Shown here piece by piece: positions 16,805 through 48,669 of a stretch of 49,169 nucleotides of DNA. The position numbers and the translations under genes are program-made. The stretch comes from Deltaproteobacteria bacterium (GTDB taxonomy: Bacteria; Myxococcota_A; Polyangia; HGW-17; SLPX01): the NCBI GenBank assembly GCA_021162935.1, contig JAGGXR010000105.1, forward strand, positions 1-49,169, read 5' to 3'. Every line of letters starts with the position of its first letter. Within the stretch, counting starts at the first letter, position 1. The notes under the pieces were generated by a model, which worked only from the letters and a program-made list of their open reading frames with translations, did no database searches and was not told the origin of the DNA.

Positions 16805-19800
16805 CTATCTCAATCCTGCATCCTCTTCGAGCAGACGGCGGTGTGAGCCGGCCGCTTCGATGTGCTGCACCGCCTTGGCCAACAACTCGTCACCCTCGGC
16901 ACCTCCCAACCGCAAACCGAGTTGGTGCTCACAGATGGCCAGATCGATGGGTTGATCGCGATCATGGGACACCTTCCGGGCACGACGCAGCCAGTCCACA
17001 GCCTCACTGTGCCGTCCCACGGCGTCCAGGGCATAGGCCATGGCGCGCAGGTTGAATGCCGGTCTGAGGGGAGGAGCATCCACCACGGATCGCACCAGGG
17101 AACGCACCCTGAAAAACCGGGCGCCCGGATGCCCTGTCCGCAGAGCATTCGCTTCCACCATGGCCGCGACACCCGTGTTGATTTCCGTATACATGGGTCC
17201 CATCTTGCTGAGCATCCTTGGATGCGTTGCAAAAAAGTCACGCGCCTCGTGACAGTCGTTCATGGAGATATCCGGGGTCACACTGGTAAACCGAAGCGAC
17301 CTGACCTGGAGGTTGTCCAGGTCCTTGGGATAGGCACGAACGGCATCCACCATGAGTTGCTTGGCTTCCTCCAGCCGTCCCTGAAAGATCAACAGGTACA
17401 TCTTGATGGTCGAAAAATTCCCGTGCGTCGCCATCGTGCGCGAATCACCGGACACGGCCGCCCATCGATTGAGCCACTTCTCGATGTCAGCCACGTTCTG
17501 TTTGGTAATGGCCATGAGGGTACGATGGTACAGGATGCGGGCATGCTCATACGTCCCCACCAACCCTCGGCCACTGTAGTCCTCGTGAACCTTTTCGAAC
17601 TTGGCGATCGCCTCGTCCCAGTCACCTCGGTGCTGCGCCAGGACGCCTGCCAGAAAATCAGGCATCACGGCGGCCACCGGATCGGCTGGAACCATGTCAC
17701 CGAGGGTTCGACGCGCTGCATCCATGTATCGATGAGCCAAGCTGTTCCGTCCTGCACGTCGCTGTGCAAACATGGCGTAGAATGCAAACACGTAGTCGCA
17801 AGCGGCTGCATGCTCGAAGAGTCCATCCTGGAGCATCTTCTTCTGGGCTCGCTGCATGAGCCGCAAGCCACTGACTGGGTCGAAGTGGAGGACCACCGTC
17901 GCCATGCGCACGGATCGCTCGGCTTTCGCCGCATCCGTCACGGCGCCCGCCCCGACGGTCGAAACGGAACGCCCGCGAACCTCCTGCCTGCGCCTCGCCA
18001 TCTGCGGCCCGAGCAAGAAACCGGCAAACGTGGACAGCCGGTCCATCCAACTCGATTTGAGCGGCTGGCCGGTAAGAGCCAAAACCTCGTCGAGCTTTCT
18101 TCTCCCTTCGATGAGGTCGTTGGCCGACAGCAGGGCCTGTACCTCGCCCAAACGTGCATCCAAGACAGCATCCTTACGACCGTCGTGCGCCTGCTCGAAC
18201 GACGCCACTGCCGCCCATGTCTGCGCCGCCTCCACGTAACGACCCGACCGTTGCAGACAGGAGGCCATGGACCGCTGCAACGACACGTCACTCGGAGTGT
18301 CCTTCGCAGCGGAGATGGCCTTTGCATACATATCTGCGGCCAAACCGTAGGCTCGCATCTCCTCTGCCTGTCGCGCCGCCTTCTCGGCCCAGTCCGCAAC
18401 CTCACCGAGTCTCCCGGCAGCCAAGAGATGGCGAACCACCCGCTCGGGCCGAGGACGAGATCGACGCAGAAGCAGGTCCGCCATACGACTGTGCGCCTCG
18501 ACGATCATGGAGTTCGGCAGAATCCGCTCCAGCTCCGATCGCAGCGAATCATGATAGATGTCCACCCGGGCGTTGGGGCCCAAACCGCCTTTGGTTCGCA
18601 CCAACGCATCCGCCCGGGCCACATGCAGCGCCTCGTCCACGTCCGGGTATGACTCGCCCATCAGGGCCACCAGGTCCCCAACCACCGTCCATTCGTCTGA
18701 GGCGATCAAAGCGGCCAACAATCGCTTCGTCCGGTCTCCCTCCCGCGACACGAGCGCCTCGACCACCCTGGAGAGTGAAAAATCCGTGAGGTCGTCCAAG
18801 GCATCCAACGCAAGATTGCGACCAGCCACTTCCGCGAGCATGGGACGCCCCTGGCACAACGCTTCGATGCGATCGAGTCGTGCCTCGGTCAGGTTCCTAC
18901 CCTGCTGAGCCGCGGCTCGCTCCACGATGGCTCGTATGGCATGGGGATCCAGGCGGCCAACTTCGATGAATCGAGCACGATCCACGGACCGCACCCACCG
19001 GACCGAGACGGTCTCCTCGACATCGTTGCGCAGCGTGGCCAATACGGCCACCCGATTGCTACCTGCCGCAACCAAGTGGTCGAGCAACGCCACGGAATCC
19101 TGGTCCGCCCAATGGAGGTCATCGACGAAAAGAAGGACCCCATCAAAGCGTCGAGCCACGATCTGCAGCAGTTCGTTGAGGGCCGCAAAGGCCGCCTGTC
19201 TCGTCACTCGGTCCCCGTCGGGAATCGGCATTGTCGCACCCACATCGTCAGGCGTGACGAGGACACCATCCAAGGACGCAACCATACGGCCATTTAAGGA
19301 ATCGTCTGCAGACTGCAGGAGGCGCGTTGCTTTCTGGACCCGACCGCCAGGGACCAGCACGGGAAAGGCTGCGCCAGCGCGCCTCATGATCGCATCCAAA
19401 TCCGTGACGCCTCGGCGCTGCTCGAGCTGCCCCAGACTAACCGCCAGGTCATCGACGACTCCGTCGAGTGCATTGTAGGCCACCCGTTCGTTGCCCCGCC
19501 CGCGTCCCCGGAGCACCAGGCGGCCAAGCCGGTCGACGCGAGACGCCAACCATTTCGCCAGGGCGGATTTCCCGGCGCCTGCCGGTCCTTCCAGAACCAC
19601 GAAGGAAAACCGTTGGTCCCACTTCTTCCCAAGCAAAGAACACAGGGTCTTTTTCAGGTCGGACACGCCGATCAACGAGGACGCAGCCCGCCTTCCAGGC
19701 CTAGATGCACGTTTCGACTCAGGCCTGGTAAGCAGAGCGCCCAGGTCGGAAAGGGCTGGTCTCGACTCCGGATCCTTGGACAAAAGCTGGTTGACCGCCT

Positions 19801-20896
19801 GGCAAAGATCGGGTGGCGCCCAGGGAGCCAGCGAGGCCAATCTGGGAGCAGGATCTTGAAAATGGGCCATCATCATGGCCACGTTCGACCCTTCGAACAC
19901 GGGCCGGCCGGCCACCATCTCGAACAGGATGGCGCCCAACGCATAGAGATCCATGGTCGGATGCGGCGAATCGCCGCGAAGCTGCTCGGGCGACATGTAT
20001 CCCACCGTCCCGAGGGACACATTATCTGACCAACGCCTTGCCTGCCAATCCAGAGAAGCGAGTAAACCAAAATCCAACACCTTGACCCGCCCTGCCCGAC
20101 TCACCATGATGTTGGCTGGCTTCAGATCACGATGCACGATGCCATGATCGTGCAGGAACGCCAACGCATCGAGCATCTGTGGCAGAACAACGGAAATTCG
20201 CTCCAGAACCTGAAATCTCCGATCCGCCTCGACCGGCGTCAGGGGCTGTCCGACATCCGTTGCAGGCAGGCCGTCCCCTCCATCGCTCTGCTGGGGAGCC
20301 GTCCCATCCTCGAGCCCACCCGAGGCTGGGGACCAGGGACCACCCAGCTTCGTGACCGACGACCTCGTGGCCGACAACATCGTGGCCGACGGCCCCTCAT
20401 CATCGGATGACCCTGGTGTCCCGTCATCCGGATCCTGGTCGGCTGCCCCATTGGGCGCCACCAGCAAAGCTCCCGGCTCCGGGCCTGTCCAGCTCGCACC
20501 CCTGCCATCGTCGCGTTGCGCTCGTTCGACGCGTCCCGCGTCACGGCGCGAAGCAGTCCACAACTTCGATCGGTCCACCGCCCTCGTCTCACTGTCTGAT
20601 TCCGGCGGCGACAGCCCGGCAACGACGAAGACATCGAGGGGCTCCCCATCGACCGCCTCCATGGTGAAGAACAGTCCCTCGTCGTCCTGGCCCAGTTCGA
20701 TGAGGCGCACGAGATTCGGATGGCGCAAGGACTCGACGGACCGAAATTCTCGCTTGAACCGCAGCATGGCCGCAGCAGTGGACTCGTTGATCCGCTTGAG
20801 CGCCACGGTCTCACCACGCACCCGGTCTTCTGCCAGGAACACGCTCCCCATGCCTCCCTGGCCGAGCTTCCTGATGACTCGATATCGGTCATTCAT
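16805..20896 (-). CDS. Ser/Thr protein kinase fused to AAA-type ATPase and helical repeats
   Basis: Giant signalling protein, 1363 residues. The N-terminal Hanks-type kinase has the glycine loop GQGGMGSV (13-20), the lysine of VALKRI (K34), HRDLKPANI (255-263), DFG (275-277) and SPEQL (302-306). Between the hinge and helix E it carries an insertion of about 130 low-complexity residues (roughly 92-225), rich in Asp, Ser and Gly. Next comes an NTPase with Walker A GPAGAGKS (437-444) and a Walker B-like LLFVDDLHWAD, the layout of PknK/STAND-type AAA_16 ATPases. The C-terminal 600 residues are alpha-helical with TPR-like repeats. The ATG at 20896 follows a weak GGGAG. It is divergent from a DNA methyltransferase gene. 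It most likely integrates a ligand or protein signal into phosphorylation; targets are unknown, though an FHA protein is encoded nearby. Confidence 0.93.
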   Translation of the reverse strand: MNDRYRVIRKLGQGGMGSVFLAEDRVRGETVALKRINESTAAAMLRFKREFRSVESLRHPNLVRLIELGQDDEGLFFTMEAVDGEPLDVFVVAGLSPPESDSETRAVDRSKLWTASRRDAGRVERAQRDDGRGASWTGPEPGALLVAPNGAADQDPDDGTPGSSDDEGPSATMLSATRSSVTKLGGPWSPASGGLEDGTAPQQSDGGDGLPATDVGQPLTPVEADRRFQVLERISVVLPQMLDALAFLHDHGIVHRDLKPANIMVSRAGRVKVLDFGLLASLDWQARRWSDNVSLGTVGYMSPEQLRGDSPHPTMDLYALGAILFEMVAGRPVFEGSNVAMMMAHFQDPAPRLASLAPWAPPDLCQAVNQLLSKDPESRPALSDLGALLTRPESKRASRPGRRAASSLIGVSDLKKTLCSLLGKKWDQRFSFVVLEGPAGAGKSALAKWLASRVDRLGRLVLRGRGRGNERVAYNALDGVVDDLAVSLGQLEQRRGVTDLDAIMRRAGAAFPVLVPGGRVQKATRLLQSADDSLNGRMVASLDGVLVTPDDVGATMPIPDGDRVTRQAAFAALNELLQIVARRFDGVLLFVDDLHWADQDSVALLDHLVAAGSNRVAVLATLRNDVEETVSVRWVRSVDRARFIEVGRLDPHAIRAIVERAAAQQGRNLTEARLDRIEALCQGRPMLAEVAGRNLALDALDDLTDFSLSRVVEALVSREGDRTKRLLAALIASDEWTVVGDLVALMGESYPDVDEALHVARADALVRTKGGLGPNARVDIYHDSLRSELERILPNSMIVEAHSRMADLLLRRSRPRPERVVRHLLAAGRLGEVADWAEKAARQAEEMRAYGLAADMYAKAISAAKDTPSDVSLQRSMASCLQRSGRYVEAAQTWAAVASFEQAHDGRKDAVLDARLGEVQALLSANDLIEGRRKLDEVLALTGQPLKSSWMDRLSTFAGFLLGPQMARRRQEVRGRSVSTVGAGAVTDAAKAERSVRMATVVLHFDPVSGLRLMQRAQKKMLQDGLFEHAAACDYVFAFYAMFAQRRAGRNSLAHRYMDAARRTLGDMVPADPVAAVMPDFLAGVLAQHRGDWDEAIAKFEKVHEDYSGRGLVGTYEHARILYHRTLMAITKQNVADIEKWLNRWAAVSGDSRTMATHGNFSTIKMYLLIFQGRLEEAKQLMVDAVRAYPKDLDNLQVRSLRFTSVTPDISMNDCHEARDFFATHPRMLSKMGPMYTEINTGVAAMVEANALRTGHPGARFFRVRSLVRSVVDAPPLRPAFNLRAMAYALDAVGRHSEAVDWLRRARKVSHDRDQPIDLAICEHQLGLRLGGAEGDELLAKAVQHIEAAGSHRRLLEEDAGLR

Positions 20897-21000: not shown

Positions 21001-21039
21001 ATGATGATTCTGCCTGTGGATGGCTTTTTGTCCTCATGA
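21001..21039 (+). CDS. Twelve-codon leader peptide coupled to the methyltransferase
   Basis: A short reading frame, MMILPVDGFLSS, starts with two consecutive ATG codons just after a strong GGGAGGAAAT ribosome binding site. Its TGA stop (21037-21039) overlaps the ATG of the large methyltransferase gene (21036-21038) in the arrangement ATGA. The methyltransferase start has no good Shine-Dalgarno sequence of its own. Ribosomes terminating on the leader would therefore be positioned to reinitiate on the enzyme gene. This is direct from sequence; the regulatory role is inference. Confidence 0.45.
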   Translation: MMILPVDGFLSS

Positions 21040-24000
21040 GTCGCTCGGTTGAACAGGATGGAATCCACGCCGCGGTCGAGGCTCTCGTCGAAGGGTCGAG
21101 CGACGCCCTGAAGGCTCTCTTCGAAGCCCACCGCGACATGACCCTCGACGATGCGTATGCAGCGATCCTGCGGATCGTCTTGCGCTCCATGACCAGGCTC
21201 GTCGCCGAAGCACGAGGGATGACTCCAGCCCACGATGGTCGCAACAAACAACGCAGGCCACTCCATGATCTCCTCGAACACCTCGATGCGAAGGCCCGAT
21301 CCGAGGCGGGCATCCACGAACTCCAGGCTGGACGCGAGGCCTGGAGGATCTGGATGGCGATCTTCAAGACGGACCGTTCCAATCGAACGGTCGCGAACGC
21401 TTCGGTAAGGGCACGAGAGCAGGTCCTGTTCCAACCAGGCGACGAACGGTCGCAAGAACCGAAACTGCGTGCTCTTGCCGCCCTGGAACGCCAGCGAAAC
21501 GGACCGAACGACGCCCAGGTACTCGGCCTGCTCAAGCTCCTGGCCGAGATGGCCGCAGGCAACCAGGGCCGGCCGAACAGGACCACCGCCACCAGCGACG
21601 CAGCCCAGGGCGACCAACTGAGCAGGAACCGTTCCCCGACGACCCCGGAAATCATCGGCGGCCTCTACGAGACGCTTCTCGACGTCCAACTCCGCCGCAT
21701 ATCTCCCGATGCTCATGGGCCCGACCAACAACGGCCAAGCGCGTTCTTTCTGGCCAGATGGTCTGGCACCAGGAAAGGCGGCGGCGCTTTCTATACCCAT
21801 CCGGGACTCGCTGGGCCCACCGTTGCACGAACCCTGAGGCCGCTGGCCTACGCCCCGGTCGACGAGGTCACCAACGAACGAACCGGGCGGACCAGGGTGA
21901 CGGCCTGGCGGCCCAAAATACCCGAGGACATCCTGGCCCTTCGGATCTGCGACCCTGCCATGGGGGCCGGCAGCTTCCTCGTGTCCGCCCTTCGATTCCT
22001 CGTGGACGCGTTGGCCGAAAGCCTCGAAACGTACGACCGATTCAAAGAAACGCCCCAAGGGACCATCTGCACCTTGAGGCTACCGGACGCAGCGGGCCCA
22101 TGGGGACAAGAGGTCTGCGACATGGCCAAGGACCATCCGCAGTTCCAACGCACACTCCGACGACGTCTTGGCCGTCGTGTGATCGAAACCTGCCTGTTCG
22201 GCGTGGACCTCGACCCCATGGCCGTTGCCCTCGGCAGTGCCGTCCTGTGGCTGGAACTGGGCGACCCGGATCTTGCCCACGATGAACTGGCCCATAACCT
22301 GAAGATCGGCAACAGCCTCGTGGGAAGCTGGCTGGACCTGTACGGGGTCGAACGAGCGAGCATTGCAACGCTCGAACCCGACGAACGTGACCATCTCAAG
22401 AAGACGCTCGACGCGGACTGCGCAGTCTGGTTTCAGCCACAGAAGAAGGGCCGCCATGCTCGGACCCATGCAATTTTCGACCTGTCGTCGGACGAGACAG
22501 GGACCACGGCCCAACATCTCGCGGACAGGCATCGCTTCTTCCACTGGGAACTCGAATTCCCTGATGTGTTCGCACGAGACAATCCTGGATTCGATGCCGT
22601 GCTGGGCAATCCGCCATGGGAAACCGTCCAGCCAGATTCCAAAGAGTTCTTTTCGAAAATCGATCCACTCTATCGCACCTACGGAAAACAGCGAGCGCTG
22701 CAACGCCAAATCGAACTCTTTGCCGAGGATCCGAGCGTGCAGCAGGCCTGGATGCGTCACAGCGCAGATATCGAGGCGATGGCGCGGTGGGCCAAACGAT
22801 CAGGAGCATCACAGACTCGCGCTCGACGACATTTAGCACCACGAGTCCCATCGAATGAAAATCATCCATTCTGCCATCAGGGATCGGGCAAGCCGTACAC
22901 GTACAAGATGTTCCTGGAACAGGCGCACGCAATCGTCCGAAACACAGGACGCATCGGGGTGATCGTGCCCTCGGGTCTCTACACGGACCGGGGCAGTGCG
23001 CCGCTGCGTCGTCTGTTCCTCGAAACCTGTCGTTGGGAATGGCTCTTCGGCTTCGAAAACCGCAGCAGGATCTTCGACATCCATCGTTCCTTCAAATTCT
23101 GCCCAATCGTCGTGGAGAAGGGCGACCACACGGCTGCCATCCAGGCGACCTTCATGCGTCGAGACCCGGACGACTGGCGCAATGCCGAAACGCTTGCCGT
23201 GCCCTACCCGACCCAACGCATCGAGCAATTCAGCCCGCGCACGAAGTCCATCGTGGAGGTTAGCGACCCACGCGACCTCGAAGTCCTCGACAGGATCTAC
23301 CGGGGTGGCGTCCTGCTGGGAGACGCTTCTTCGAATGGGTGGGGGCTCACGTACCGACAGGGCGACTTCAACATGACGAGCGACTCCAGGCTCTTTCCCC
23401 CGAGGCCGGCCTGGGAGCAACGCGGCTTCCTCCCGGACGAGTACGGCCATTGGCTCAAGGGGCCCTGGCGTCCGATCCATGAATCGGGTTTCGTGCTTGG
23501 TGCCAAAGATTTTCTGATCAGTTCCAACGGTGTCGATGGACGGAATGCTCACGGACAACTTGGCCATTGGACCATCCAGAATCGGCCGGACGGCCTGGTC
23601 CTGAGTCGCGACGGATCCATGGGCCTTCTGGCAGAAGACATCGAAGACCTGGCCCTACCCCTCTATGAAGGCAGGATGCTCGGCCAGTTCGATTCGAGCG
23701 CCAAGGCATGGATGAGGGGCAAGGGCAGGCGCGCCGTCTGGACAGACAAACCGTTCGAGGACCGATCCCTGGATCCCCAATATCTCATGGCCCGATCGAC
23801 CTATGAGGCCCATCGTAACGGCGGAGCTGCGCGCGGCCTGAAAGTTGGTTTTCTCGCTGTTGGGTCGGCGACGAACCAGCGGAGCATGATCGCGGCGACG
23901 ACCTATGATGCGCCCCACGGAAATTCGGTCCCAGTCATTCAGACAACAGGGGAAGTTGCCGACAGCCTCGCACTCACGGCCATCTTGAACAGCTTTGCCT

Positions 24001-24734
24001 ATGATTTCACGTTGCGATCTCGACTGGGCGGCACGAACCTCAACTACCACATCATCGAAGAGACGCCCATCCTGTCCGCCCTGTCAGCGACGGTCCGGGA
24101 GGTCATCCCGACCATTGCTGCATTGGCGGCGCGTCTGTCCTGGCCCTCCCCATCCTTTGCACCGGCCTGGCTCGCGCTGCCGGGCCGCCGCGGCCAGCCC
24201 TGGCGTTCCCTGTGGGCCATCACGAACCACGAACGGATCCGAATCCGCGCCATGCTGGACGCCCTCGTCGCCCACCTCTATGGTCTGGATTTCGAAGACT
24301 TGGCCTGGATCCTGCGCGACTGCGACCTGCCCATGGCTACGAGCATGGACCACACGATGACGCGGACACTCGCGCCCAAAGGCTTCTGGCGCCTGGACAA
24401 GACTCGGCCGCCTCACCTCCGCCATACGATTCTGTCGCTCGTCGCCTTGTGCGACCTGAACCAGATGGGGCTCTGGGCGTTCCTATCTGCAAACCACGGC
24501 GAGGGGTGGATGTTGCCCGAAACGATCCGCATGGCCGACTACGGCCTCGGACGAGACGCTGCGGCCAGATCCCACCTGCCGGTCGCCGCGGCCCTTGGGC
24601 CGCGCCTGACCCCCTGGCAAACCGCGCAAGACACCGACGAATCCTGGCAGGAATGCGCCCGGCACGCCCAGACGATCGCGCAGATCCTGCCCCTGCCAGA
24701 CATCGGGATGGACGGAAAACGGACATCCACATGA
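21036..24734 (+). CDS. Eco57I-class DNA adenine methyltransferase / putative type IIG restriction-modification protein
   Basis: 1232-residue N6-adenine DNA methyltransferase of the Eco57I/PglX-like class. After about 245 residues with no nuclease motif I recognise come RKGGGAFYTHPGLAGPTVAR (246-265) and S-adenosylmethionine motif I DPAMGAGSF (306-314). The catalytic motif IV is NPPW (525-528). A long C-terminal part includes a GTNLNYHII segment seen in target-recognition regions of this group. The length suggests a single-chain restriction-modification or BREX/DISARM-type methylase, but no PD-(D/E)xK site was identified and no helicase, PglZ, DrmA or DrmB gene is adjacent. Start 21036 overlaps the leader-peptide stop, implying translational coupling. 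The gene is divergent from the kinase-ATPase. Likely roles are phage defence or epigenetic marking. Confidence 0.88.
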   Translation: MSRSVEQDGIHAAVEALVEGSSDALKALFEAHRDMTLDDAYAAILRIVLRSMTRLVAEARGMTPAHDGRNKQRRPLHDLLEHLDAKARSEAGIHELQAGREAWRIWMAIFKTDRSNRTVANASVRAREQVLFQPGDERSQEPKLRALAALERQRNGPNDAQVLGLLKLLAEMAAGNQGRPNRTTATSDAAQGDQLSRNRSPTTPEIIGGLYETLLDVQLRRISPDAHGPDQQRPSAFFLARWSGTRKGGGAFYTHPGLAGPTVARTLRPLAYAPVDEVTNERTGRTRVTAWRPKIPEDILALRICDPAMGAGSFLVSALRFLVDALAESLETYDRFKETPQGTICTLRLPDAAGPWGQEVCDMAKDHPQFQRTLRRRLGRRVIETCLFGVDLDPMAVALGSAVLWLELGDPDLAHDELAHNLKIGNSLVGSWLDLYGVERASIATLEPDERDHLKKTLDADCAVWFQPQKKGRHARTHAIFDLSSDETGTTAQHLADRHRFFHWELEFPDVFARDNPGFDAVLGNPPWETVQPDSKEFFSKIDPLYRTYGKQRALQRQIELFAEDPSVQQAWMRHSADIEAMARWAKRSGASQTRARRHLAPRVPSNENHPFCHQGSGKPYTYKMFLEQAHAIVRNTGRIGVIVPSGLYTDRGSAPLRRLFLETCRWEWLFGFENRSRIFDIHRSFKFCPIVVEKGDHTAAIQATFMRRDPDDWRNAETLAVPYPTQRIEQFSPRTKSIVEVSDPRDLEVLDRIYRGGVLLGDASSNGWGLTYRQGDFNMTSDSRLFPPRPAWEQRGFLPDEYGHWLKGPWRPIHESGFVLGAKDFLISSNGVDGRNAHGQLGHWTIQNRPDGLVLSRDGSMGLLAEDIEDLALPLYEGRMLGQFDSSAKAWMRGKGRRAVWTDKPFEDRSLDPQYLMARSTYEAHRNGGAARGLKVGFLAVGSATNQRSMIAATTYDAPHGNSVPVIQTTGEVADSLALTAILNSFAYDFTLRSRLGGTNLNYHIIEETPILSALSATVREVIPTIAALAARLSWPSPSFAPAWLALPGRRGQPWRSLWAITNHERIRIRAMLDALVAHLYGLDFEDLAWILRDCDLPMATSMDHTMTRTLAPKGFWRLDKTRPPHLRHTILSLVALCDLNQMGLWAFLSANHGEGWMLPETIRMADYGLGRDAAARSHLPVAAALGPRLTPWQTAQDTDESWQECARHAQTIAQILPLPDIGMDGKRTST

Positions 24735-25053: not shown

Positions 25054-27219
25054 TCAATCAGCGTCGTGGTCACCGGACTGGCCGAGGCTGTCGGACTGAC
25101 CGAGGTCACCTGACTGACCGAGGCTGACGCGCAGGCCTTCGCCTTCGGGTCGGACGCTCGTGGAGATTCCTTTGCGCCGGGCCCACAACTCGATGTTGCG
25201 TGCCTCGAAATCTCGCTCCACGTACACGTGCAACGGCAGGCCTCGAAGCATGACGCCACGCTTGGTCAGATGATAGGCATCAGGAATCTTGAGCCCACGG
25301 AACGGGTCGGTGGGAATGCCCGTGGTGTCGAGCATGTCGCCTCGGAAACGAAGCTCGACTCGATACTCGCGGCTGAGTCGGGCCTCGGCTTCTGTGAATC
25401 CTTCGTCGGTCAGGTCACCGCGGCCGAACAGAACGCAATGGCAGGTTCCCTTCGAGGCGATATCCTTGTCCATATAGCGGCACGGACAGACGAGCGTTCG
25501 ATTCAGTTCGTCGTCGTCGGACGGCTCGAAGCAGGGACAGTAACGCTTGCCAAAGGTCTCCTCGGACTCCACGAGCCACAACCGAAGATTCGTGTTCATC
25601 ATCCAATGAGGGTTGACCCGGTAGCCGTTTCGGTCCGCAAAGCGATGGATCCACTCGGCATGCTTGCGGATCTCACGTCGGTACCGCACCAGATCCGTGC
25701 CAAAGGCCTTCATCATCTTCCAGGTTTCGCGAGGATTCGCCACCGATGGCCTCGGAGGGGCACATTCGGCGTTGAAGGTTGGGACATGCACGTGGCCAGT
25801 GGTCTGAATCCGACCCGGGGCCTGACTCCAACCAGTCGTCTGAATTCGGCCCGACGCCTCGACGAATCCGCTGTCATCGCCCCGTCGGCTCACGCCACCG
25901 ATCTCATGGTCCGCGACTGACTCCGTTGCGTCTCCGGTGTCCGAATCCGCCTCGCCGTCTCTCCTTGTGTTTGTCCCGGCCGAGCCCCTGCCGCCGCCCT
26001 CTGCGGCGATCCGATTCCGTTCGTTGTGTGCCGCCGCGTCGAGCCCGAACAGGCTCCTCGATTCCGGCACGTCCTCGTGGCCGTGGACCCGAATGACCAG
26101 TCGCCCCTCGGTCCCGACCTCCAGGCGTGCAATGGGCTCGGTGTGCTCATCCAACCCACGGTCACGAAGAAGCGACGCAACCTGGTCCCTGCCCTCGTCC
26201 GAGACCGCCACGAGCAGGCCGCCTCCGGTCTGAGGATCGCAGAGAATCGAACGGACCGGCTCGACGAGAGGAGTCACCTTACCCGAGTAGCTCCTCCAGT
26301 TGTTCTTCAGGCCCTTGGCGAGTGCGCCCGATGCCACGTAATGGGTCAGGTCCGTGGGAAGACGCACGGCGCCGTAGTCCAACTCCGCCGCCAGGCCAGA
26401 TGCCTCGCACAACTCGATGAGGTGACCGAGTAAACCGAAGCCGGTCACGTCCGTCATGGCGTGGACCGCGTCGATCGCGGCCAGGTCGTAGCCGATGCTG
26501 TTGAGCTGCCCCATGATACGAGCGGCAATCCCCGCATCGCCCGGCCGCAGGATGCCGTACTTTTCCGCGGTGGAAAGGAGCCCGGTTCCGATCGGCTTGG
26601 TCAAAAACACCCAATCGCCGTCCTGAGCGCCGGCATTCGTCCGCAGACGATCACGATGCACGAGGCCGTTGACCGCCAGCCCGAAGAACGGCTCGATGCT
26701 GTCGATGCTGTGCCCCCCTGCCAGGGGAATCCCTACCTCGTCGCAGACTGCCTTGCCACCGGCCAGGATGGGCCGCGCCATGGCTGGGTCGAGCTGCTCC
26801 ACCGGCCAGCCGAGCACGGCGAGCGCCAACAGAGGCCGGCCTCCCATGGCATAGATATCCGACAGGGCATTGGCCGCGGCGACCCGACCGTACTGATAGG
26901 CATCGTCGAGCACCGGAGTGAAGAAGTCCGTGGTCGCCACCAACAGATCGTCGCAACCGATGTCGTATACGGCAGCGTCGTCCTTGGTGTCGTTCCCGAT
27001 CACGAGTCCGGCAAACGATCCTGCTTTGGCGTCCTTTGGAAACGCCTCGGCCAGAACGGATTCGAGCTCAGTGGGAGACAACTTACATCCGCAGCCGGAT
27101 CCATGGCTCAAGGTCGTGAGACGAACCGGAGACTTTTCCTGCCCGGCGCCCATGGTTCCACGACCCAAAGCCTTGCTGCCAACCAGGTACTGCTTCAGCG
27201 ACATCTTGGCAAACTCCAT
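25054..27219 (-). CDS. selD: Selenophosphate synthetase fused to ferredoxin-thioredoxin reductase catalytic domain
   Basis: 721-residue fusion. Residues 1-385 are SelD, which makes selenophosphate from selenide and ATP. The catalytic SHGSGCGCK (38-46) has Cys43, encoded by TGC, where some SelD proteins have selenocysteine. ATP/metal residues lie in GNDTKDDAA (75-83), with DVTGFGLLGH (257-266) and DPQTGGGLL (328-336) further on. A low-complexity linker (about 390-480) joins an FTR-catalytic-like domain with CPC (561-563), CPC (578-580) and CHC (593-595). These are the six cysteines that in FTR bind a 4Fe-4S cluster beside a redox disulfide. A further 120 C-terminal residues are unassigned and end in GQSGD-type repeats. 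I chose the ATG at 27219 (GGGAG Shine-Dalgarno); in-frame starts reach 27351. It follows the histidine kinase gene on the same strand. The FTR part might supply electrons for selenide formation (inference). Confidence 0.92.
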   Translation of the reverse strand: MEFAKMSLKQYLVGSKALGRGTMGAGQEKSPVRLTTLSHGSGCGCKLSPTELESVLAEAFPKDAKAGSFAGLVIGNDTKDDAAVYDIGCDDLLVATTDFFTPVLDDAYQYGRVAAANALSDIYAMGGRPLLALAVLGWPVEQLDPAMARPILAGGKAVCDEVGIPLAGGHSIDSIEPFFGLAVNGLVHRDRLRTNAGAQDGDWVFLTKPIGTGLLSTAEKYGILRPGDAGIAARIMGQLNSIGYDLAAIDAVHAMTDVTGFGLLGHLIELCEASGLAAELDYGAVRLPTDLTHYVASGALAKGLKNNWRSYSGKVTPLVEPVRSILCDPQTGGGLLVAVSDEGRDQVASLLRDRGLDEHTEPIARLEVGTEGRLVIRVHGHEDVPESRSLFGLDAAAHNERNRIAAEGGGRGSAGTNTRRDGEADSDTGDATESVADHEIGGVSRRGDDSGFVEASGRIQTTGWSQAPGRIQTTGHVHVPTFNAECAPPRPSVANPRETWKMMKAFGTDLVRYRREIRKHAEWIHRFADRNGYRVNPHWMMNTNLRLWLVESEETFGKRYCPCFEPSDDDELNRTLVCPCRYMDKDIASKGTCHCVLFGRGDLTDEGFTEAEARLSREYRVELRFRGDMLDTTGIPTDPFRGLKIPDAYHLTKRGVMLRGLPLHVYVERDFEARNIELWARRKGISTSVRPEGEGLRVSLGQSGDLGQSDSLGQSGDHDAD

Positions 27220-27220
27220 T

Positions 27221-27250
27221 CTCTTCGCTCCCAACCTCTTCGCTCCCAAC
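27221..27250. repeat. 15-bp perfect tandem duplication at the selD start
   Basis: CTCTTCGCTCCCAAC is repeated exactly at 27221-27235 and 27236-27250. On the coding strand it reads GTTGGGAGCGAAGAG and provides the GGGAG ribosome binding site just before the ATG at 27219. Duplication creates two possible Shine-Dalgarno sites and two in-frame TTG codons. Confidence 0.85.
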
Positions 27251-27363
27251 CGTGCCACGCCCACTTCCGTACGGATATCTCCCCCTCGATCCGGCATCAA
27301 GAAAATACGTGGCCCAGGGTCGAATGGAATCAGACAAAAAGCCCGAAACACCGTAAACAGAAC

Positions 27364-30174
27364 TCAGTCGGAATCCTTCCCAACAGGGCCAGTGGGAAGA
27401 GACTCTTCGAGCACCTGCCGCACCTTGACCAACAGGTCGTTCGTGGAAAATGGTTTCTGCAAAACAGGGATGCCCGAATCCACAATGCCGTGATGGATCA
27501 TCGCCTCGCCGGTGTATCCGGACATGAACAGCACCCTGATATCAGGCCACCTTTCCATGATCGCCTCGGCCACGTGTTTACCGCTCCCCCCGGGCATCAC
27601 CACGTCGGAGAGCACCAACGAGATGGAGGGCACGCGTGAGAGTTGCTCCACGGCCTCTTTGCGACCGTTCGCCTGGAGCACATGATAGCCTGCACGTTCG
27701 AGCACCCGGGCCACCACGTTGCGCACCCCATCGTCGTCTTCGACGACCAGCAGCGTCTCGTGCCCACGGGGCCCAGTGGCAGCGCTCGGTCGCATCGTAT
27801 CTTCGACCTCACCCGACTTGCAGAGCGGAAGATACACTTTGAAGGTGGTCCCTTTGCCTGGTTCCGAGTAGACCCAGACGAAACCGTTGTGCTGCTTGAC
27901 GATCCCATGAACCGTGGACAGCCCCAATCCGGTTCCCTTGCTCTGAGCCTTGGTCGTAAAGAACGGATCGAAGATTCTGGCCACCGTTTCCTCGTCCATG
28001 CCACTGCCCGTATCGCTCACTGCCAGCAGCGCATAGTCTCCCACAGAACCATCCACGTGCCCCCGCAGATACGCGTCATCGAGACGAACCACGTCCGTTT
28101 CAATGGTCAGACAACCGCCCTCATCCATGGCATCGCGCGCGTTGCTCGCCAGGTTCACGATAATCTGTTCGATCTGTCCTGGATCGGCGTGAATCGTGAC
28201 ATCCTGCTCCGCCAACTGCAATGAAAGCACGATATCTTCCCCCAGCAGACGACCGAGCATCCTGTCCAGGTCCGTCACCAACCCGTTGAGGTCGATCATC
28301 CGAAATTCGACAATCTGATTCCGACTGAAGGCGAGCAGTTGCCTCGTCAGCTTAGCCGCACGGTCCACGCCCTCCATGATCATCCGCACATCGTCCAGCA
28401 ACGGATCATGTTCACGTAAGCCATCCTGGATGAACGTCGCTCCCGCGCCGACCACGGTGAGCATGTTGTTGAAATCGTGGGCCAAACCTCCAGCCAACCG
28501 GCCCACCGCTTCGAGTCGTTGCGCCTGGGCCAATTGGCGCCGAAAGTGCTCCCGCTCCGTCTCGGCCTGCCTGGCCACGAACGCAGATCCCACATCCTCG
28601 GACAACAGACCGAACGCGGCGAGGTACCGTTCATCGGCCAGAACATCCTCCGCTGCCATCGCTCCGAGAACCCCAACCAACTCGCCCTGACGTTCGACCC
28701 GTGCAATCATGCAGGTCTCCCCAGATTCCGGATGCATGGGACAATCGGCACATGCTCGACCGCCCTTTGGAACGAACGCACCCACCTTCTGTCGCGCCAG
28801 GGCGAAACAGCCCCGCCATTTTTCATTCTGGATAAAATGCTGCGTTGCATCGGCCGCGCCAGCTTCGCCCCGAATCAGGAACGAAGGCGCCTCAGTCCGA
28901 CCGTCGATCAGCCAAACCCGGTCCAATCCGAACGACTCGGACACCTCGTCCAGGGTGACCTCCAGCCAGTCATCGCCTGACCTTCGAAGCAGCCTCGAAC
29001 AACGGTGCAACCCCGTCAGCGCCCGGGTAAGCCGGGCGTCTCGCTGCCGGGCCATCACTTCATCCGTCACGTCCTGCATGATGTGGACGGCTCCGGTCAA
29101 CTCACCTGCATCGTTCACAATCGGATCCACGGTGACCCGAAGCGTTCGATCGCCGAAGGGCAGGTCCATGGATTCGCGCTGTCCTGTGCCCACCGACCGC
29201 ACGAATGGACACCCTTCGATGGGCTCGGTGGTCTTGTGCACCATCTCCCAGCACTGGCGGCCAACCAAAGCCTCGGCCGGCTCCCCCAAGAGTTCTCCCG
29301 ATGCTCGATTCGCACGGACCACGTGCTGACTTCGGTCCAGGATCCAAAAAGCATCCTTGGATGCATCAAAAGTCGCCTGCCACTGCGCTGCGGCAGCATT
29401 CGCTTCTTCCTCGAACCGCCTTCGATCCGTGATGTCCCTCACATTCAACACCATGGACACAATCCGGCCATCCTCGATCAGGGGAGTCGACGATGCCTCT
29501 ATGGGAATCTCCCGCCCATGTGCGTCCCGAAACACGGTTTCGTAAATGAGCGTGGACCAATCGCCTTCCTGCCGTGATGACCGATTCTGGTCGATCACGG
29601 GCTGGCCGCCCGGGCCCACGAGGTCGGCGACATTCGCGCTCAGGATATCTTCGGGACTGTACCCGAAACGCTCGAGCCCGGCCCTGTTCGCATAGGTAAT
29701 GCGGCCCTCGGTGTCATGCATGAAGATAAAATCCCCCGCAGTTTCAGCCAAAATCCGATACTTCTCCTCGCTGCGCTGCAAAGCGCTATTGTGTCGTTCG
29801 GTCAATGCTTGCGACTGGTGTCGAAGCATCAAGAATGCCCCGGTCCTCACCCTGAGCATCGCCTTCGTGGTCGGCATGAAGAGGCAGTCGTCGAAGCCGG
29901 ACTCCAGCCATACGCTGGCGTCGTCATGCAGGTCGATCGCCACCAAGGCCGGCAGAAACACCTCGCTGGCAGTCTTGCGGGCCATGATTTCTGGACCCAA
30001 GAGGCGCGCCCATATAGCATCGAGCAAGAACAGATCCACCGAGGCCTCGCCGCCGTTCCAGTCCAACAGCACCTCATGACCGAACGCCCGCAGGTGCTCC
30101 ACCATGAACCGTTCCTCTTCAGGCCGCTTGAACCGGACGACCATGACGCTTGCATTGCCCATCACACCACCCAT
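27364..30174 (-). CDS. Hybrid sensor histidine kinase (receiver-like, PAS, PAS, GAF, HisKA, HATPase, REC)
   Basis: 936-residue cytoplasmic sensor without transmembrane segments. The N-terminus (about 8-120) looks like a degenerate receiver. PAS domains lie at about 135-255 and 262-375. A GAF-like domain (about 395-540) carries an unusual cysteine group, C456, C475, C478 and C488, that could bind metal or an iron-sulfur cluster. The dimerisation helix has the phospho-acceptor H566 in LAHDFNN, followed by N-box NLASNARDAM, DTGSGM, FFTTK and GTGLGLS of the ATPase. The C-terminal receiver has VVEDDD and the phospho-acceptor D857 in LSDVVMPGG. The start may be 30174 or the ATG at 30162, which has a slightly better ribosome binding site. 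It is immediately upstream of selD-FTR on the same strand, which suggests a redox or respiratory signal. Phosphorelay to an unlinked regulator is likely. Confidence 0.93.
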   Translation of the reverse strand: MGGVMGNASVMVVRFKRPEEERFMVEHLRAFGHEVLLDWNGGEASVDLFLLDAIWARLLGPEIMARKTASEVFLPALVAIDLHDDASVWLESGFDDCLFMPTTKAMLRVRTGAFLMLRHQSQALTERHNSALQRSEEKYRILAETAGDFIFMHDTEGRITYANRAGLERFGYSPEDILSANVADLVGPGGQPVIDQNRSSRQEGDWSTLIYETVFRDAHGREIPIEASSTPLIEDGRIVSMVLNVRDITDRRRFEEEANAAAAQWQATFDASKDAFWILDRSQHVVRANRASGELLGEPAEALVGRQCWEMVHKTTEPIEGCPFVRSVGTGQRESMDLPFGDRTLRVTVDPIVNDAGELTGAVHIMQDVTDEVMARQRDARLTRALTGLHRCSRLLRRSGDDWLEVTLDEVSESFGLDRVWLIDGRTEAPSFLIRGEAGAADATQHFIQNEKWRGCFALARQKVGAFVPKGGRACADCPMHPESGETCMIARVERQGELVGVLGAMAAEDVLADERYLAAFGLLSEDVGSAFVARQAETEREHFRRQLAQAQRLEAVGRLAGGLAHDFNNMLTVVGAGATFIQDGLREHDPLLDDVRMIMEGVDRAAKLTRQLLAFSRNQIVEFRMIDLNGLVTDLDRMLGRLLGEDIVLSLQLAEQDVTIHADPGQIEQIIVNLASNARDAMDEGGCLTIETDVVRLDDAYLRGHVDGSVGDYALLAVSDTGSGMDEETVARIFDPFFTTKAQSKGTGLGLSTVHGIVKQHNGFVWVYSEPGKGTTFKVYLPLCKSGEVEDTMRPSAATGPRGHETLLVVEDDDGVRNVVARVLERAGYHVLQANGRKEAVEQLSRVPSISLVLSDVVMPGGSGKHVAEAIMERWPDIRVLFMSGYTGEAMIHHGIVDSGIPVLQKPFSTNDLLVKVRQVLEESLPTGPVGKDSD

Positions 30175-43864: not shown

Positions 43865-46800
43865 TCAGGCCATGCCACGTCCGGTCTGGGTTGGAGCCGG
43901 CAGTTCATGGATAAAGATGCCGGCGTCGTTGTGGACATCTCCCGCCAATTCCACAACCCGCAAGTGGTGCGTGAAAAGCAGGACCTGGGTCCTGGATGCC
44001 AGGTCGGCAAGCACCTCCAGGCAAACCTTGGTGCGATGATCGTCGAAACCGATCAAGATATCATCCACGACAAAGGGCATGGGCTCCGTCCTGCCGAGAT
44101 GCTGATCCAGGGTTGCGAGGCGCAGCGCCAGATAAAGCTGATCCCTTGACCCATCGCTCATGCCGTCCACGGCCACCTCCATTTCGTTGGGACGAACACC
44201 GAGCAAGATGGGGCGACCTCCTTCATCCACCTCATCACGCAGTTTCACATAGGACCCCAAGGTCAACCGAGCGAACAGCTCCCCTGCCCTCGCCAAAACA
44301 GGAGCCTGATGCTGCTTTCGATACGCCTCTATCCGCTGCCCCAGGACCAACGCGGCAATCCGCAGACGCAGGTACTGCTCGGCTCCGGACACGATGGTCG
44401 CAAGAAGCTCCTCGCCCTCCTGGGACGCCTCAGCCGCCAAGGAACTGCCGTCTTTGGCGTCTATCTGATCGAGAATCGCCTGACGCCGATCTCGAAGTAC
44501 GTCTCGACGATTCTGGAGTTCCTGCAACTCGGACGAAACCCGAACGAGTTCACCTTCGACCGCATCCATGTCGGACTCGGCCGCCTCCTGCTCCAGTTCT
44601 TCGATGCTCAAGGCGTCTCCACTACGGACGAGCTCCCGCTCGAGCACGAGGAGACGCTTTTCTTCCTCACGCTTTTTCTTTGAGCGGTCACATGCCAGCT
44701 CCAAATCCTTCTCCGTGGAAACGCGGGCCTGGATCATCAGGTCGGCGAGTTCTTTCTGTGCGGTCCTGATGGTGATGTCGGCGTTTTCGATCTCCGCGAT
44801 GACGTCCTCTCTGTGTTTCTCTATCTTTTGAAGACTCGCTCGATCTTCTCGCGTCCTACTCACATCTCGATAGAGCCGGCCAACGATCGCACTCGCTTTG
44901 AGGCCATCCGTATGGAACCCGATGCGTTCAGCGAACTCCAGCACCCTCCTGTCGAAAACGTCCTCGACCTGCTGCATGTCCTCGATGCGCTTTTTGAGTT
45001 CCTCAGACCTGTCGAATTTTTCAAAAAACTGAGCAAGCCTGTCGAACGTCTCGACGGCATGTTCGGGATGAACCGTGGGACCAAGCCCCAAACCATCGAT
45101 TGCCTGTGCCCATTCCTGCTGCCACCCAGCTTGCTCCGCCTCGATAGCTCGAAGTTCCTCACGCGTCCGGTTCAGCCGCTTCTCCGCATCGGCTAGAGTG
45201 TGTTCCGATTCTCGTCTGTGTATGCGCGCTGCTTCCTCCTCCTCCACTCGTTCTTCGCACAGGCTTATCATGGCATCCAAGGTCATCGAACTTGTATCGA
45301 TGGCCTCGTCGAATCCCATGATTCGGCGCAACATCGAGGCCCGATTCGTCTCATATTCCTCGGCGACCCGCTGCGCTTCAGCCACAGTCTCCTGCACAAC
45401 GCCGAAGTGCTCAATGATGCCTTCGGCCTTCACCATCCATTGCTTCATCTCTCGCGGAGTGCCCGGCTCGATGCCCAAAGGCGTCCAAACTGCATTCCAT
45501 TCCTTCTCGATGGCGTGGCGATCTTCGTCTGCCTTCCGAATCGCCTCTTCCTGGTCGCGGCCGCGGGACGTCGCCCTTTGGATGCTCACCTCGAAATCCG
45601 CGCGTTTGACCACCTTATCAGCCTCCGTGCGGATCAGGTCCGACACACGGTCTGCGGCTGCCACTTGCCGCTCATAGAACAATGGCAAATCGGCATTGGC
45701 CGCAAACTCCGCCATCGTCCCATCCATCTCGCGATGTTCGATGAATTTGCCTCTGATCGCCATCCATGCTCGATCTCGCAGCGCCCTCACTTCTTTCAAC
45801 TGCGACACGGTGGGCACATCACTCTTGCGAAGCAGCGCCTCCAAATCCTGCGACGACGCTTCCCGCTCTTCGTCGAGTTCCCCGAGCTTCCGTCTGCAAT
45901 CTCGAATCCGCTCTTCGATCTCGCCGAACTGCTTCTCGAACAGATCCAATGTTTCGCTCACGGGCAGGGCGACCTTCGAAAGCGCCTCGACCGATTCCGA
46001 AAATCTCCCGAGTCGAGTAAACCGACTTTCACAGCCAGCCTGTTCCTCGCGCGCGCGCCTCTTCGCCTCAGCCAATCTTCCATCGAGATCGCCAGACTTG
46101 CGCGCCGCTGCAACTGCTGCCTTCAGGTCCTTGAGGTCCAGATTCCGCGGCGTCCCTTGTCCGAGGTCCTTCTTTGCGGCTGCCCTGGCATCTTCGAGTT
46201 CTGTCAGGGTAACTTCCGCCTTCTCCTTCTTCTGATTCAGCCCGGCGTGCGCCCGCGCCAGCCCGGCGATCCATTTCTTGTTGTTCAGAATCCGTCGAAG
46301 ACCGTTCACGTCCTCCATGGCTACATCGGGACGTATCCCCTTCAGGATGGTTTCAGCCTCACTGCGCAGCATGCGCCGCTTTCCCTCCTGTTGTGGTCGA
46401 TCCCTGCGCGACTTCTCAACAGCGCCCAACTCCTTGTGTAGGGACAAAATGTCTGCTTCGTTGTCGAGTAGTTCCTTGCGAACGTCGAGGGTCCGAGCTT
46501 CCTCCTCGATGCGCATACGTTTCGCCTCGGCCCGCTCCTTCTCGACCCTGGCCCGTTTCAGGTCTCCGGAAACGATCCGACGTCTCTCGTCGAAGTCCTC
46601 GGGAAGGACCAACACGTCTCCCATCTCCTTGAGTCGTTCCACCACGGATCGACGCTCCGCAAGCGCGCTCTTGACACGACTGAGACGAGCCAGCCGGACA
46701 TGCTCTCTGGTCATCTTACGACTTTCGCCATCAACCTGATCAATTTGGGCCACCGCCTCATCCAGTTCCTGCCGAAGGGCCTTCCACTCCTTCACCGAAA

Positions 46801-47407
46801 GGCTCGCGGCCTTGACCCGCTTACGCGCATCCTTGAACGCTGTGTTCGCCTTGTTCACCACCCTCGTGGAGGCTCTAGGTGCAAACAATGCATCCGCCTC
46901 CTCCTGCAGATCCGACAATATCTTGCGAAGCCCCGCCGTCCCGACGGCTGCACTGAACAGAGCCTGCCCCATGTCCCCTGATTCGCTCAGCAGTTCCTGC
47001 CCGCCAGCGACCAATCGATCGTGGTCGATTCCATAAAGCTTCGTGAACAGGTCCGCATCGATGCCCACGGGCAGAAACGGTTCCAGAACCGAATCGTCCA
47101 ACGCATCAGACCCATCGACCCCGAGCAGCGTGCCTTTGTTTCCCTTTCTCCGCACGAATTCGATCCACCGACCATCCGACAGGCTGAGCCTGCCCCCGAT
47201 ACGCAGTTGCTTGTTGTCGTGTAGAAAGTTGTCACTGGTCCGAGTAGGAATTCCGAACAGCCATGCAATGAGCGCGCGAAGGGACGTACTCTTGCCCGCC
47301 TCATTGTCTCCGTAGATGAGGTGGAGGCCGGACGATCCTCGTGAAAGGTCCACAGATGTGTCGGTGAACGGCCCATAGGCAATCAAGTCGAGACGGTCAA
47401 TTCTCAT
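43865..47407 (-). CDS. YhaN/SbcC-like AAA ATPase with long coiled coil
   Basis: 1180-residue SMC/Rad50-type ATPase. The N-terminal Walker A GDNEAGKST (33-41) and the C-terminal PFVVDDILIGFDD Walker B-like segment frame roughly 800 residues of charged heptad coiled coil. YGPFTD near the start, the GIDADLFTKLYGIDHDRL segment and the DGMSDGSRDQLYLALRLA signature are typical of the YhaN branch rather than SbcC. No zinc-hook CxxC is visible in the coiled coil. The ATG at 47407 overlaps the stop of the upstream nuclease gene (ATGA), so the two are translationally coupled and probably form a complex. The likely function is ATP-driven DNA end processing or repair, as for YhaO/YhaN and SbcCD. Confidence 0.92.
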   Translation of the reverse strand: MRIDRLDLIAYGPFTDTSVDLSRGSSGLHLIYGDNEAGKSTSLRALIAWLFGIPTRTSDNFLHDNKQLRIGGRLSLSDGRWIEFVRRKGNKGTLLGVDGSDALDDSVLEPFLPVGIDADLFTKLYGIDHDRLVAGGQELLSESGDMGQALFSAAVGTAGLRKILSDLQEEADALFAPRASTRVVNKANTAFKDARKRVKAASLSVKEWKALRQELDEAVAQIDQVDGESRKMTREHVRLARLSRVKSALAERRSVVERLKEMGDVLVLPEDFDERRRIVSGDLKRARVEKERAEAKRMRIEEEARTLDVRKELLDNEADILSLHKELGAVEKSRRDRPQQEGKRRMLRSEAETILKGIRPDVAMEDVNGLRRILNNKKWIAGLARAHAGLNQKKEKAEVTLTELEDARAAAKKDLGQGTPRNLDLKDLKAAVAAARKSGDLDGRLAEAKRRAREEQAGCESRFTRLGRFSESVEALSKVALPVSETLDLFEKQFGEIEERIRDCRRKLGELDEEREASSQDLEALLRKSDVPTVSQLKEVRALRDRAWMAIRGKFIEHREMDGTMAEFAANADLPLFYERQVAAADRVSDLIRTEADKVVKRADFEVSIQRATSRGRDQEEAIRKADEDRHAIEKEWNAVWTPLGIEPGTPREMKQWMVKAEGIIEHFGVVQETVAEAQRVAEEYETNRASMLRRIMGFDEAIDTSSMTLDAMISLCEERVEEEEAARIHRRESEHTLADAEKRLNRTREELRAIEAEQAGWQQEWAQAIDGLGLGPTVHPEHAVETFDRLAQFFEKFDRSEELKKRIEDMQQVEDVFDRRVLEFAERIGFHTDGLKASAIVGRLYRDVSRTREDRASLQKIEKHREDVIAEIENADITIRTAQKELADLMIQARVSTEKDLELACDRSKKKREEEKRLLVLERELVRSGDALSIEELEQEAAESDMDAVEGELVRVSSELQELQNRRDVLRDRRQAILDQIDAKDGSSLAAEASQEGEELLATIVSGAEQYLRLRIAALVLGQRIEAYRKQHQAPVLARAGELFARLTLGSYVKLRDEVDEGGRPILLGVRPNEMEVAVDGMSDGSRDQLYLALRLATLDQHLGRTEPMPFVVDDILIGFDDHRTKVCLEVLADLASRTQVLLFTHHLRVVELAGDVHNDAGIFIHELPAPTQTGRGMA

Positions 47408-48669
47408 CGGGCACCTCCCGCCCCAAGCAGCCTCCCCACCAGCAGGTGCTTGGCCTCCTCCACCAGACCATGGATAAATTCTGCATCGTCGAGGCTCAAC
47501 GGAGACGCACCACGAAGCGCCTCTGGTGGAACCTTCCTTCGCAGATCATCGATGACCTGCTCGAGACCACCGATGGCTTCTGGGCCTCCCGGAGTCGCCA
47601 AAATCTCGTTGAGCAGCTCTCCAAACACCGTATCGTCGGACAAAATTGAATCCAGATCCATCCTGTTCGTTGCAGCATTCTCCACGCGTTCGACCCACAG
47701 GTCCTCCCCCGCAATCTCCGCCCCCAACGCACGAACCTCCTGTTCGAGGCGTTCGGGATAGGCTGCAAGCTCATCGCAGAGCCCAGTCGTCCCTTCGAGA
47801 CGGATGCGCATGGCGATGGGACGACCGTCTGCCACGTCCCGCTCTGCTTCCATGTGCCTACGCACACGATTCAAGACATCACGCACATCTGCAACGTCTG
47901 TGACATCCACCCTGCAAAAGGCCCAACGTAAGACGTCCAAAGGAATGTTCTCGACCTCCTTCACAGCGCCTCCGTCGACCGTAACGAGCACGCAACCCTT
48001 GGGCCCGGTTTCTTTGATGTGTCGGCCCTGGATGCAGCCAGGAAACACGATCCACGGGTCACGCGACACCACTTCGTACTTGTGGACATGGCCGAGCGCC
48101 CAATATTGGTAGCCCTTGGATCGTAGGTCGTCCACCGTGCAGGGGGCATATGGCGCATGCCCTTCCCGACCATCGAGGCTCGTGTGCAGCAGCCCGATGT
48201 TGAACAGGCCATCTTTGGCCGCCGGAAAATGAGCCGCCAGGTTGTCGCTCACCTGCCCCTGACCGAAACTGCGGCCATGGATCGCCACCGACAGGTCGTC
48301 TGCCAAAATCGTCTCCACCCTGCGTGACGAAAGAATCGTCATGTTGGCAGGAGGTTCCAAGGTCTTGGTCATCTTATTTGCTGCATCGTGGTTTCCCAAA
48401 ACAGCAAACACCCGGATGCCGTGTTGGCCCAGCCGCCCCACCTGGAGCTTCAAGAAAATACCGGTGCTGTAGTCCTTCCAGTCGCCGTCATAGAGGTCGC
48501 CTGCCAACAGGACGAAGGCCACCTGCTCCTCGATGGCCCGATCCACCAGGTTTTCGAACGCTCTTCGACAGGCATTGCGAATGGACTCGGCCGGTGCGGA
48601 TTCGTAGCGCGACAGGCCGCGCAGCGGACTATCCAGGTGAATGTCTGCCGCATGGATGAACGTAAACAT
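47404..48669 (-). CDS. YhaO/SbcD-like metallophosphoesterase (DNA nuclease subunit)
   Basis: 421-residue calcineurin-fold nuclease. Metal motifs are D9-x-H11 in IHAADIHLDSPL, G57-D58, GNHD (92-95), H162 in LLHTSLDG and GHVH (193-196). The C-terminal part includes an ATPase-capping region rich in charged helices. The ATG at 48669 follows AAGGAG by seven bases; an in-frame extension of 16 codons is unlikely. It is the first gene of a two-gene operon and its stop overlaps the YhaN-like ATPase start. The pair should act as a Mre11/Rad50-type nuclease on double-strand ends. Confidence 0.94.
   Translation of the reverse strand: MFTFIHAADIHLDSPLRGLSRYESAPAESIRNACRRAFENLVDRAIEEQVAFVLLAGDLYDGDWKDYSTGIFLKLQVGRLGQHGIRVFAVLGNHDAANKMTKTLEPPANMTILSSRRVETILADDLSVAIHGRSFGQGQVSDNLAAHFPAAKDGLFNIGLLHTSLDGREGHAPYAPCTVDDLRSKGYQYWALGHVHKYEVVSRDPWIVFPGCIQGRHIKETGPKGCVLVTVDGGAVKEVENIPLDVLRWAFCRVDVTDVADVRDVLNRVRRHMEAERDVADGRPIAMRIRLEGTTGLCDELAAYPERLEQEVRALGAEIAGEDLWVERVENAATNRMDLDSILSDDTVFGELLNEILATPGGPEAIGGLEQVIDDLRRKVPPEALRGASPLSLDDAEFIHGLVEEAKHLLVGRLLGAGGAR

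Follow-up and report, generated by a model that had tools for sequence, protein, structure and literature searches.

The window, by which we mean the whole 49,169-nucleotide stretch of DNA that was analysed, encodes on its minus strand a fusion protein whose domain order is SelD, a linker, a ferredoxin-thioredoxin reductase (FTR) catalytic domain and a cysteine-less TusA/SirA-like domain (hereafter the TusA-like domain). The features of the locus, all on the minus strand, are given below, with residues numbered in the full open frame.

25054-27351, minus strand: fusion gene, full open frame of 765 aa from GTG 27351
26032-27153, minus strand: SelD domain, Cys type
27096-27082, minus strand: SelD loop GCGCK, with Cys87, Cys89 and Lys90
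25705-26031, minus strand: low-complexity linker, with GRIQTTG occurring twice
25747-25782, minus strand: linker motif PTFNAECAPPRP, of the form F-N-A-x-C-x-P-P, its cysteine being Cys530 (codon 25764-25762)
25399-25704, minus strand: FTR catalytic domain, with CPC at 25539-25531, CPC at 25488-25480 and CHC at 25443-25435
25117-25341, minus strand: TusA-like domain without cysteine, an LPxP-type loop replacing CPxP
27364-30174, minus strand: upstream gene, a PAS/PAS hybrid sensor histidine kinase with a receiver domain

The frame is open throughout, as the first-pass annotation of this DNA had stated in describing one uninterrupted frame with SelD and an FTR catalytic domain, and the two signatures that it pointed out, SHGSGCGCK and CPC-x14-CPC-x12-CHC, could both be located (GCGCK at residues 86-90 and the cysteine pattern at residues 605-639). 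Its list of domains stands for SelD, the linker and the FTR domain, and had overlooked the C-terminal TusA-like domain and the FNAxCxPPxP motif of the linker. The likely start of the gene is ATG 27219, which gives a protein of 721 aa and is preceded by GGGAG about 8 bases upstream; alignment with the spirochaete homologues suggests a start close to this codon, making the start proposed in the first-pass annotation plausible. We note a perfect direct repeat, GTTGGGAGCGAAGAG, in two tandem copies just 5' of the likely start (27221-27250, minus strand). A chance frame or a misassembly was considered as the origin of the fusion and ruled out, because the identical domain order in one frame recurs in Spirochaetota, in one complete gene (L025) and one split gene (L124/L024).

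The upstream histidine kinase gene has no known selenium link, and selenium genes do not adjoin the fusion among its neighbours in the window or among those of the L025 gene; a tRNA or Rfam match was likewise not found in the window. Elsewhere, the window encodes a type IIG restriction enzyme-methyltransferase (21036-24734, plus strand; PADLOC, 871 bits), a large Ser/Thr protein kinase of 1363 aa with an AAA ATPase and TPR repeats (16805-20896, minus strand), and an SMC/RecN-like AAA_27 ATPase (43865-47407, minus strand) followed by a 437-aa frame (47404-48717), the last two possibly forming a repair nuclease pair.

Residues 73-422 match SelD over the full length of the family (NF002098, 435.2 bits against a cut-off of 299, E-value 1.4e-130; TIGR00476, 378.1 bits against a cut-off of 125; both NCBIfam), and the best match among solved structures is the selenide, water dikinase 3u0o (1.2e-102). 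The catalytic Cys87 and Lys90 are present in the N-terminal loop. The domain is predicted to make selenophosphate, the indirect evidence being that the fusion is the sole SelD of two genomes with a selenium-molybdenum cofactor system. In the SelD tree, the SelD domains of the window and L025 fusions form one clade (support 100/100), which has the Cys-type SelDs of Campylobacterota as its sister group and lies far from the second, Sec-type SelD of the window's own genome.

Residues 563-651 were identified as FeThRed_B (PF02943 of Pfam, 61.5 bits, gathering score 22, E-value 8.7e-17). The first-pass annotation had made conservation of the cysteines in relatives a test of its reading, and all six cysteines of the CPC, CPC and CHC motifs are invariant among the 35 aligned members. 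We take the 4Fe-4S ligands to be the first cysteine of the first CPC, both cysteines of the second CPC and the first cysteine of CHC, and the active disulfide, following the usual FTR scheme, is presumably formed by Cys607 and Cys639. The domain thereby holds the full predicted set of cluster ligands together with the predicted active-site cysteine pair. An AlphaFold model of the FTR and TusA-like domains has a mean pLDDT of 91.5 and matches the FTR structures 7pwe, 4tpu, 2pu9 and 1dj7 (for 7pwe_B, E-value 3.8e-5, probability 1.00).

The TusA-like domain is a stretch of about 75-90 residues C-terminal of the FTR domain that is kept throughout the FTR-TusA-like family, with the cysteine-free consensus LDTRGMPLDPRRGLPIPDxMHQVKSxLN... 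in the family alignment. A match to PF01206 was obtained for 10 of 26 family members (best 1.4e-6), the window domain itself not being among them, and the profile of the domain found a single match in the PDB, the SirA-like/UPF0033 protein 3hz7 (E-value 0.015). The AlphaFold model of this domain alone has its elements in the order beta-alpha-beta-alpha-beta-beta. Foldseek searches initiated with this model returned the SirA-like 3hz7 as the top match (probability 1.00, TM-score of 0.70 on the target, with a weak E-value of 0.036) and, in fourth place, TusA from the IscS-TusA complex (3lvj_C; probability 0.94, with a weak E-value of 0.15). The catalytic cysteine of CPxP is absent, an LPxP-like sequence being found throughout the family, and because of this replacement we keep the domain out of the TusA sulfurtransferase class. 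As modelled, it is a TusA fold that would not carry out the known chemistry of TusA.

The linker is longer in the window protein than in L025. The FNAxCxPPxP motif and its cysteine are kept in all three fusions (window, L025 and L024) within an otherwise variable linker, and were not seen in the alignment of free-standing FTR-TusA-like proteins. This conserved cysteine could shuttle selenium from module to module.

Scanning 84,980 species genomes for the FTR-TusA-like part yielded 39 loci, two of which encode the SelD-FTR-TusA-like fusion, both in Spirochaetota MAGs. The architecture, whose recurrence the first-pass annotation had proposed to look for, is thus found in two further genomes. The L025 fusion is complete (648 aa; SelD 67% and FTR-TusA-like part 66% identical to the window), and the L024 fusion is split at a contig end, its N-terminal part being the end of L124; the FTR parts of the two are 66% and 64% identical to that of the window. 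At the other 37 loci, in Campylobacterota, Bacillota, Chloroflexota and others, the FTR-TusA-like part is a separate protein about 210 residues long, and another free copy is present in the Spirochaetota genome G717. A second fusion was not found in the class of the window (318 genomes) or in a sample of its phylum (379 genomes), where only remote FTRs were seen, nor was a further one found among 286 Spirochaetota beyond the genome of L025; the fusion is therefore rare. No plasmid match for it was found. Its occurrence in two distant lineages suggests transfer.

The free gene of G717 (L131; G717:C140:101-649) has an in-frame TGA after GTCH, at the position of the second active-site cysteine (CHC becoming CH-TGA), which possibly encodes selenocysteine. 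The hairpin following this TGA is not clearly better than shuffled sequences (z = -1.11), and SelB was not found above cut-off in the bin, so we treat a selenocysteine form as only a lead. An in-frame TGA in L005 sits outside the FTR cysteines.

SelD was detected above cut-off in 31 of 32 carrier genomes and also in G717, G968 and G1098, that is, in 34 of 35. Only G597 departs from this; since selA, selB and tRNA-Sec are adjacent on one of its contigs, its SelD is probably missing from the bin. The selenium uses of the carriers differ: mnmH without selA is found in 22 carriers, nearly all Campylobacterota, and selA together with mnmH in four (G594, G595, G609 and G620). The window genome has selA (C75), selB (C51) and a Sec-type SelD; the latter, a second SelD with an in-frame TGA, lies on another contig (L121; G000 contig C124:218-1135). 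A role of the window fusion in selenouridine or in the selenium-molybdenum (Se-Mo) cofactor was considered, and neither mnmH nor YqeB was found in a family-by-family search of this genome.

In G592 and G593, the spirochaetes that encode the fusion, no other SelD was detected. Neither genome has selA, selB or mnmH above cut-off; both carry a YqeB with a fused XdhC domain next to YqeC, a system that is the sole selenium use detected in them. They accordingly belong to the orphan-SelD genomes of Se-Mo cofactor type (PMC2432076, PMC2276186). In G593 there are, in addition, adenine deaminase, YgeW and a selenium-type Mo hydroxylase (TIGR03313-type). The XdhC-YqeB fusions are located at L122:9721-11352 (minus strand) and L123:2720-4333 (plus strand), and near each of them lies a protein of about 550 aa without an NCBIfam match (L122:12190-13824 and L123:269-1936).

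Among the free genes, that of L026 lies directly 3' of a gene that scores above the TIGR03527 cut-off:

L026:6363-6710, plus strand: stand-alone DsrE half of YedF, covering 110 of 194 profile positions

A TusA half was not seen upstream of this DsrE gene; we note that the DsrE gene and the FTR-TusA-like gene together would restore the combination of TusA and DsrE. At L028, the free gene is flanked, within about 8 kb, by YqeB and by a gene for a YedE-like transporter, and a thioredoxin-like gene is also near. Across the 39 loci only lineage-specific synteny is seen, and in Campylobacterota the neighbourhoods of the free genes are variable and mostly without a selenium link. In a sample of 200 genomes of this phylum, FTR-TusA-like carriers number three, all with SelD, and co-occurrence with SelD is weak evidence there because SelD is common anyway (155 of 200).

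A link of the FTR-TusA-like module to selenium, the central idea of the first-pass annotation, is strongly supported because the carriers have SelD, the fusion is the sole SelD in the two Se-Mo genomes and half of YedF is a neighbour of a free gene. The same annotation had spoken of a self-contained enzyme, which is too strong: an FTR catalytic domain depends on electrons from outside, as from ferredoxin or a similar donor, and a partner protein is suggested by the TusA-like domain. The module probably serves SelD or the supply of selenium in some way. For selA (Sec), mnmH (selenouridine) and yqeB (Se-Mo cofactor) alike there are carriers without the gene; because no selenium use is common to all carriers, selenophosphate is the common factor, and the simplest place for the module is upstream, at supply. 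That it provides SelD there with reduced selenium in a ferredoxin-linked step has, in our judgement, an even chance of being correct, and the evidence leaves us evenly divided over whether its FTR pair reduces oxidised or protein-bound selenium with ferredoxin electrons, selenide being released close to SelD. More tentatively, and with the odds leaning slightly against it, FTR-TusA-like, free or fused, may be a dedicated and previously unrecognised ferredoxin-dependent selenium reductase that feeds SelD.

Under the supply model, ferredoxin would donate electrons by way of the 4Fe-4S cluster to the Cys607-Cys639 pair. This pair would take up selenium as selenotrisulfide, perselenide or Se(0) and reduce it, and the selenide freed close to SelD would be made into selenophosphate. 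The TusA-like domain could act as a docking platform for a sulfur or selenium carrier, for instance a cysteine desulfurase or a DsrE protein resembling YedF, and a separate FTR-TusA-like gene product would perform the same step in trans. The presence of the fusion in three genomes of two distant lineages, and of FTR-TusA-like as a free-standing protein elsewhere, favours the model. Against it stand the neighbourhoods of the free genes in Campylobacterota, mostly unconnected with selenium, and those of the window and L025 fusions; moreover, SelA, SelB and a Sec-type SelD are all present in the window genome besides the fusion, and FTR domains usually reduce thioredoxin-like proteins.

The main rival to the supply model is reduction of SelD's own CxC pair: the FTR domain would repair or control SelD by reducing its oxidised active site (a Cys87-Cys89 disulfide or a selenenylsulfide), so that SelD is on when reduced ferredoxin is available. 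The CxC motif GCGCK, served by a fused reductase of its own from a disulfide reductase family, would fit this arrangement, and chloroplast FTR, in parallel, switches its targets through thioredoxin. The rival is weakened, however, by five carriers of the free gene whose SelDs lack the second cysteine, with GUGAK (G596), GUASK (G601), GCAAK (G602), GUAAK (G620) and GCGSK (G717), and it leaves the TusA-like domain no place; we regard it as unlikely.

It is also improbable, in our estimate, that FTR-TusA-like is a general ferredoxin-dependent reductase of disulfides in thioredoxins, glutaredoxins or sulfur carriers, with the fusion a chance union and the link to SelD an indirect one, both being found in sulfur-active anaerobes. 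Solved relatives of the FTR domain that carry rubredoxin or glutaredoxin domains (4tpu, 7pwe), the varied neighbours of the free genes, the thioredoxin-like gene at L028 and, for the free family, the frequency of SelD in Campylobacterota given above would agree with such a role. It is countered by the near-constant presence of SelD in carriers and the Sec machinery of the remaining one, by the maintenance of the fusion, with a linker motif of its own, in two lineages, and by YedF and YqeB as neighbours. Sequestration or detoxification, in which SelD would drain the selenide that the module forms by binding and reducing surplus selenite or Se(0), is very unlikely: drainage by a single chain of SelD and reductase would fit, as would the separate Sec-type SelD of the window genome's Sec pathway, but the sole SelD of G592 and G593 must serve the Se-Mo cofactor, if this is made from selenophosphate.

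If the supply model holds, FTR-TusA-like would fill a missing step in which selenide is made and delivered without release, and in the spirochaetes it would feed the Se-Mo cofactor pathway. It has been called unknown whether selenophosphate is the source of the labile selenium in Se-Mo hydroxylases (PMC11448449). The two spirochaetes, in which the fusion is the sole SelD and no other selenium trait was detected, provide comparative evidence in favour of this source, and their fusions also suggest where the electrons for this supply come from. With SelD and a specific reductase in a single chain, selenium delivery without release of toxic selenide becomes testable on one protein, and the free-standing FTR-TusA-like family adds a new candidate to the selenium genes of Campylobacterota and other groups.

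The fusion shares its fold and six cysteines in the FTR domain with the catalytic chains of plant and Synechocystis FTR, Methanosarcina 4tpu and the Desulfotalea Grx-FDR 7pwe, with an identity of about 25-28% to 7pwe and 4tpu; for the plant and cyanobacterial enzymes it is about 20%. The partner domains differ, being SelD and the TusA-like domain here and rubredoxin or glutaredoxin in 4tpu and 7pwe. FTR selenoproteins, such as the double-selenoprotein FtrB of NF041072 and those of the GOS data, similarly tie an FTR domain to selenium, and are known without SelD (PMC2398784, NF041072); for NF041072 the window protein obtains 43.9 bits, the cut-off being 160, and it has Cys rather than Sec at both active positions, and a SelD fusion is not described for that family. 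YedF (TIGR03527), a TusA and DsrE protein linked to SelD, has a TusA-like domain in common with the fusion. It carries the CPxP cysteine and a DsrE domain (PMC5322559), whereas the domain of the fusion lacks the cysteine and is joined to FTR, not DsrE.

Fusions of SelD itself are known, and those found in prokaryotes by Mariotti et al. 2015 are all N-terminal (PMC4561486). An N-terminal NADH dehydrogenase or NifS domain was not found in the window protein with Pfam and NCBIfam. According to the first-pass annotation, the SelD-FTR architecture is not known to have been described; our literature search, mostly of journals outside subscription, likewise gave no such fusion, nor, with few subscription journals included, a combination of FTR with TusA. 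The FTR module, its C-terminal position and the TusA-like domain appear to be new. The NifS-SelD fusions of Geobacter sp. FRC-32 and others join SelD to a selenium-delivery enzyme, as proposed here, which is a PLP desulfurase in their case and an iron-sulfur reductase in the window fusion. The NADH dehydrogenase (COG1252)-SelD fusion likewise combines a Cys-type SelD with a redox module, with an N-terminal flavoprotein and CxxC in SelD as against a C-terminal 4Fe-4S FTR with the TusA-like domain and CxC in SelD. Its redox module was proposed to reduce a selenium compound for SelD (PMC2432076, PMC2398784), so that the NADH dehydrogenase-SelD fusion is a precedent for the idea of a reductase serving SelD.
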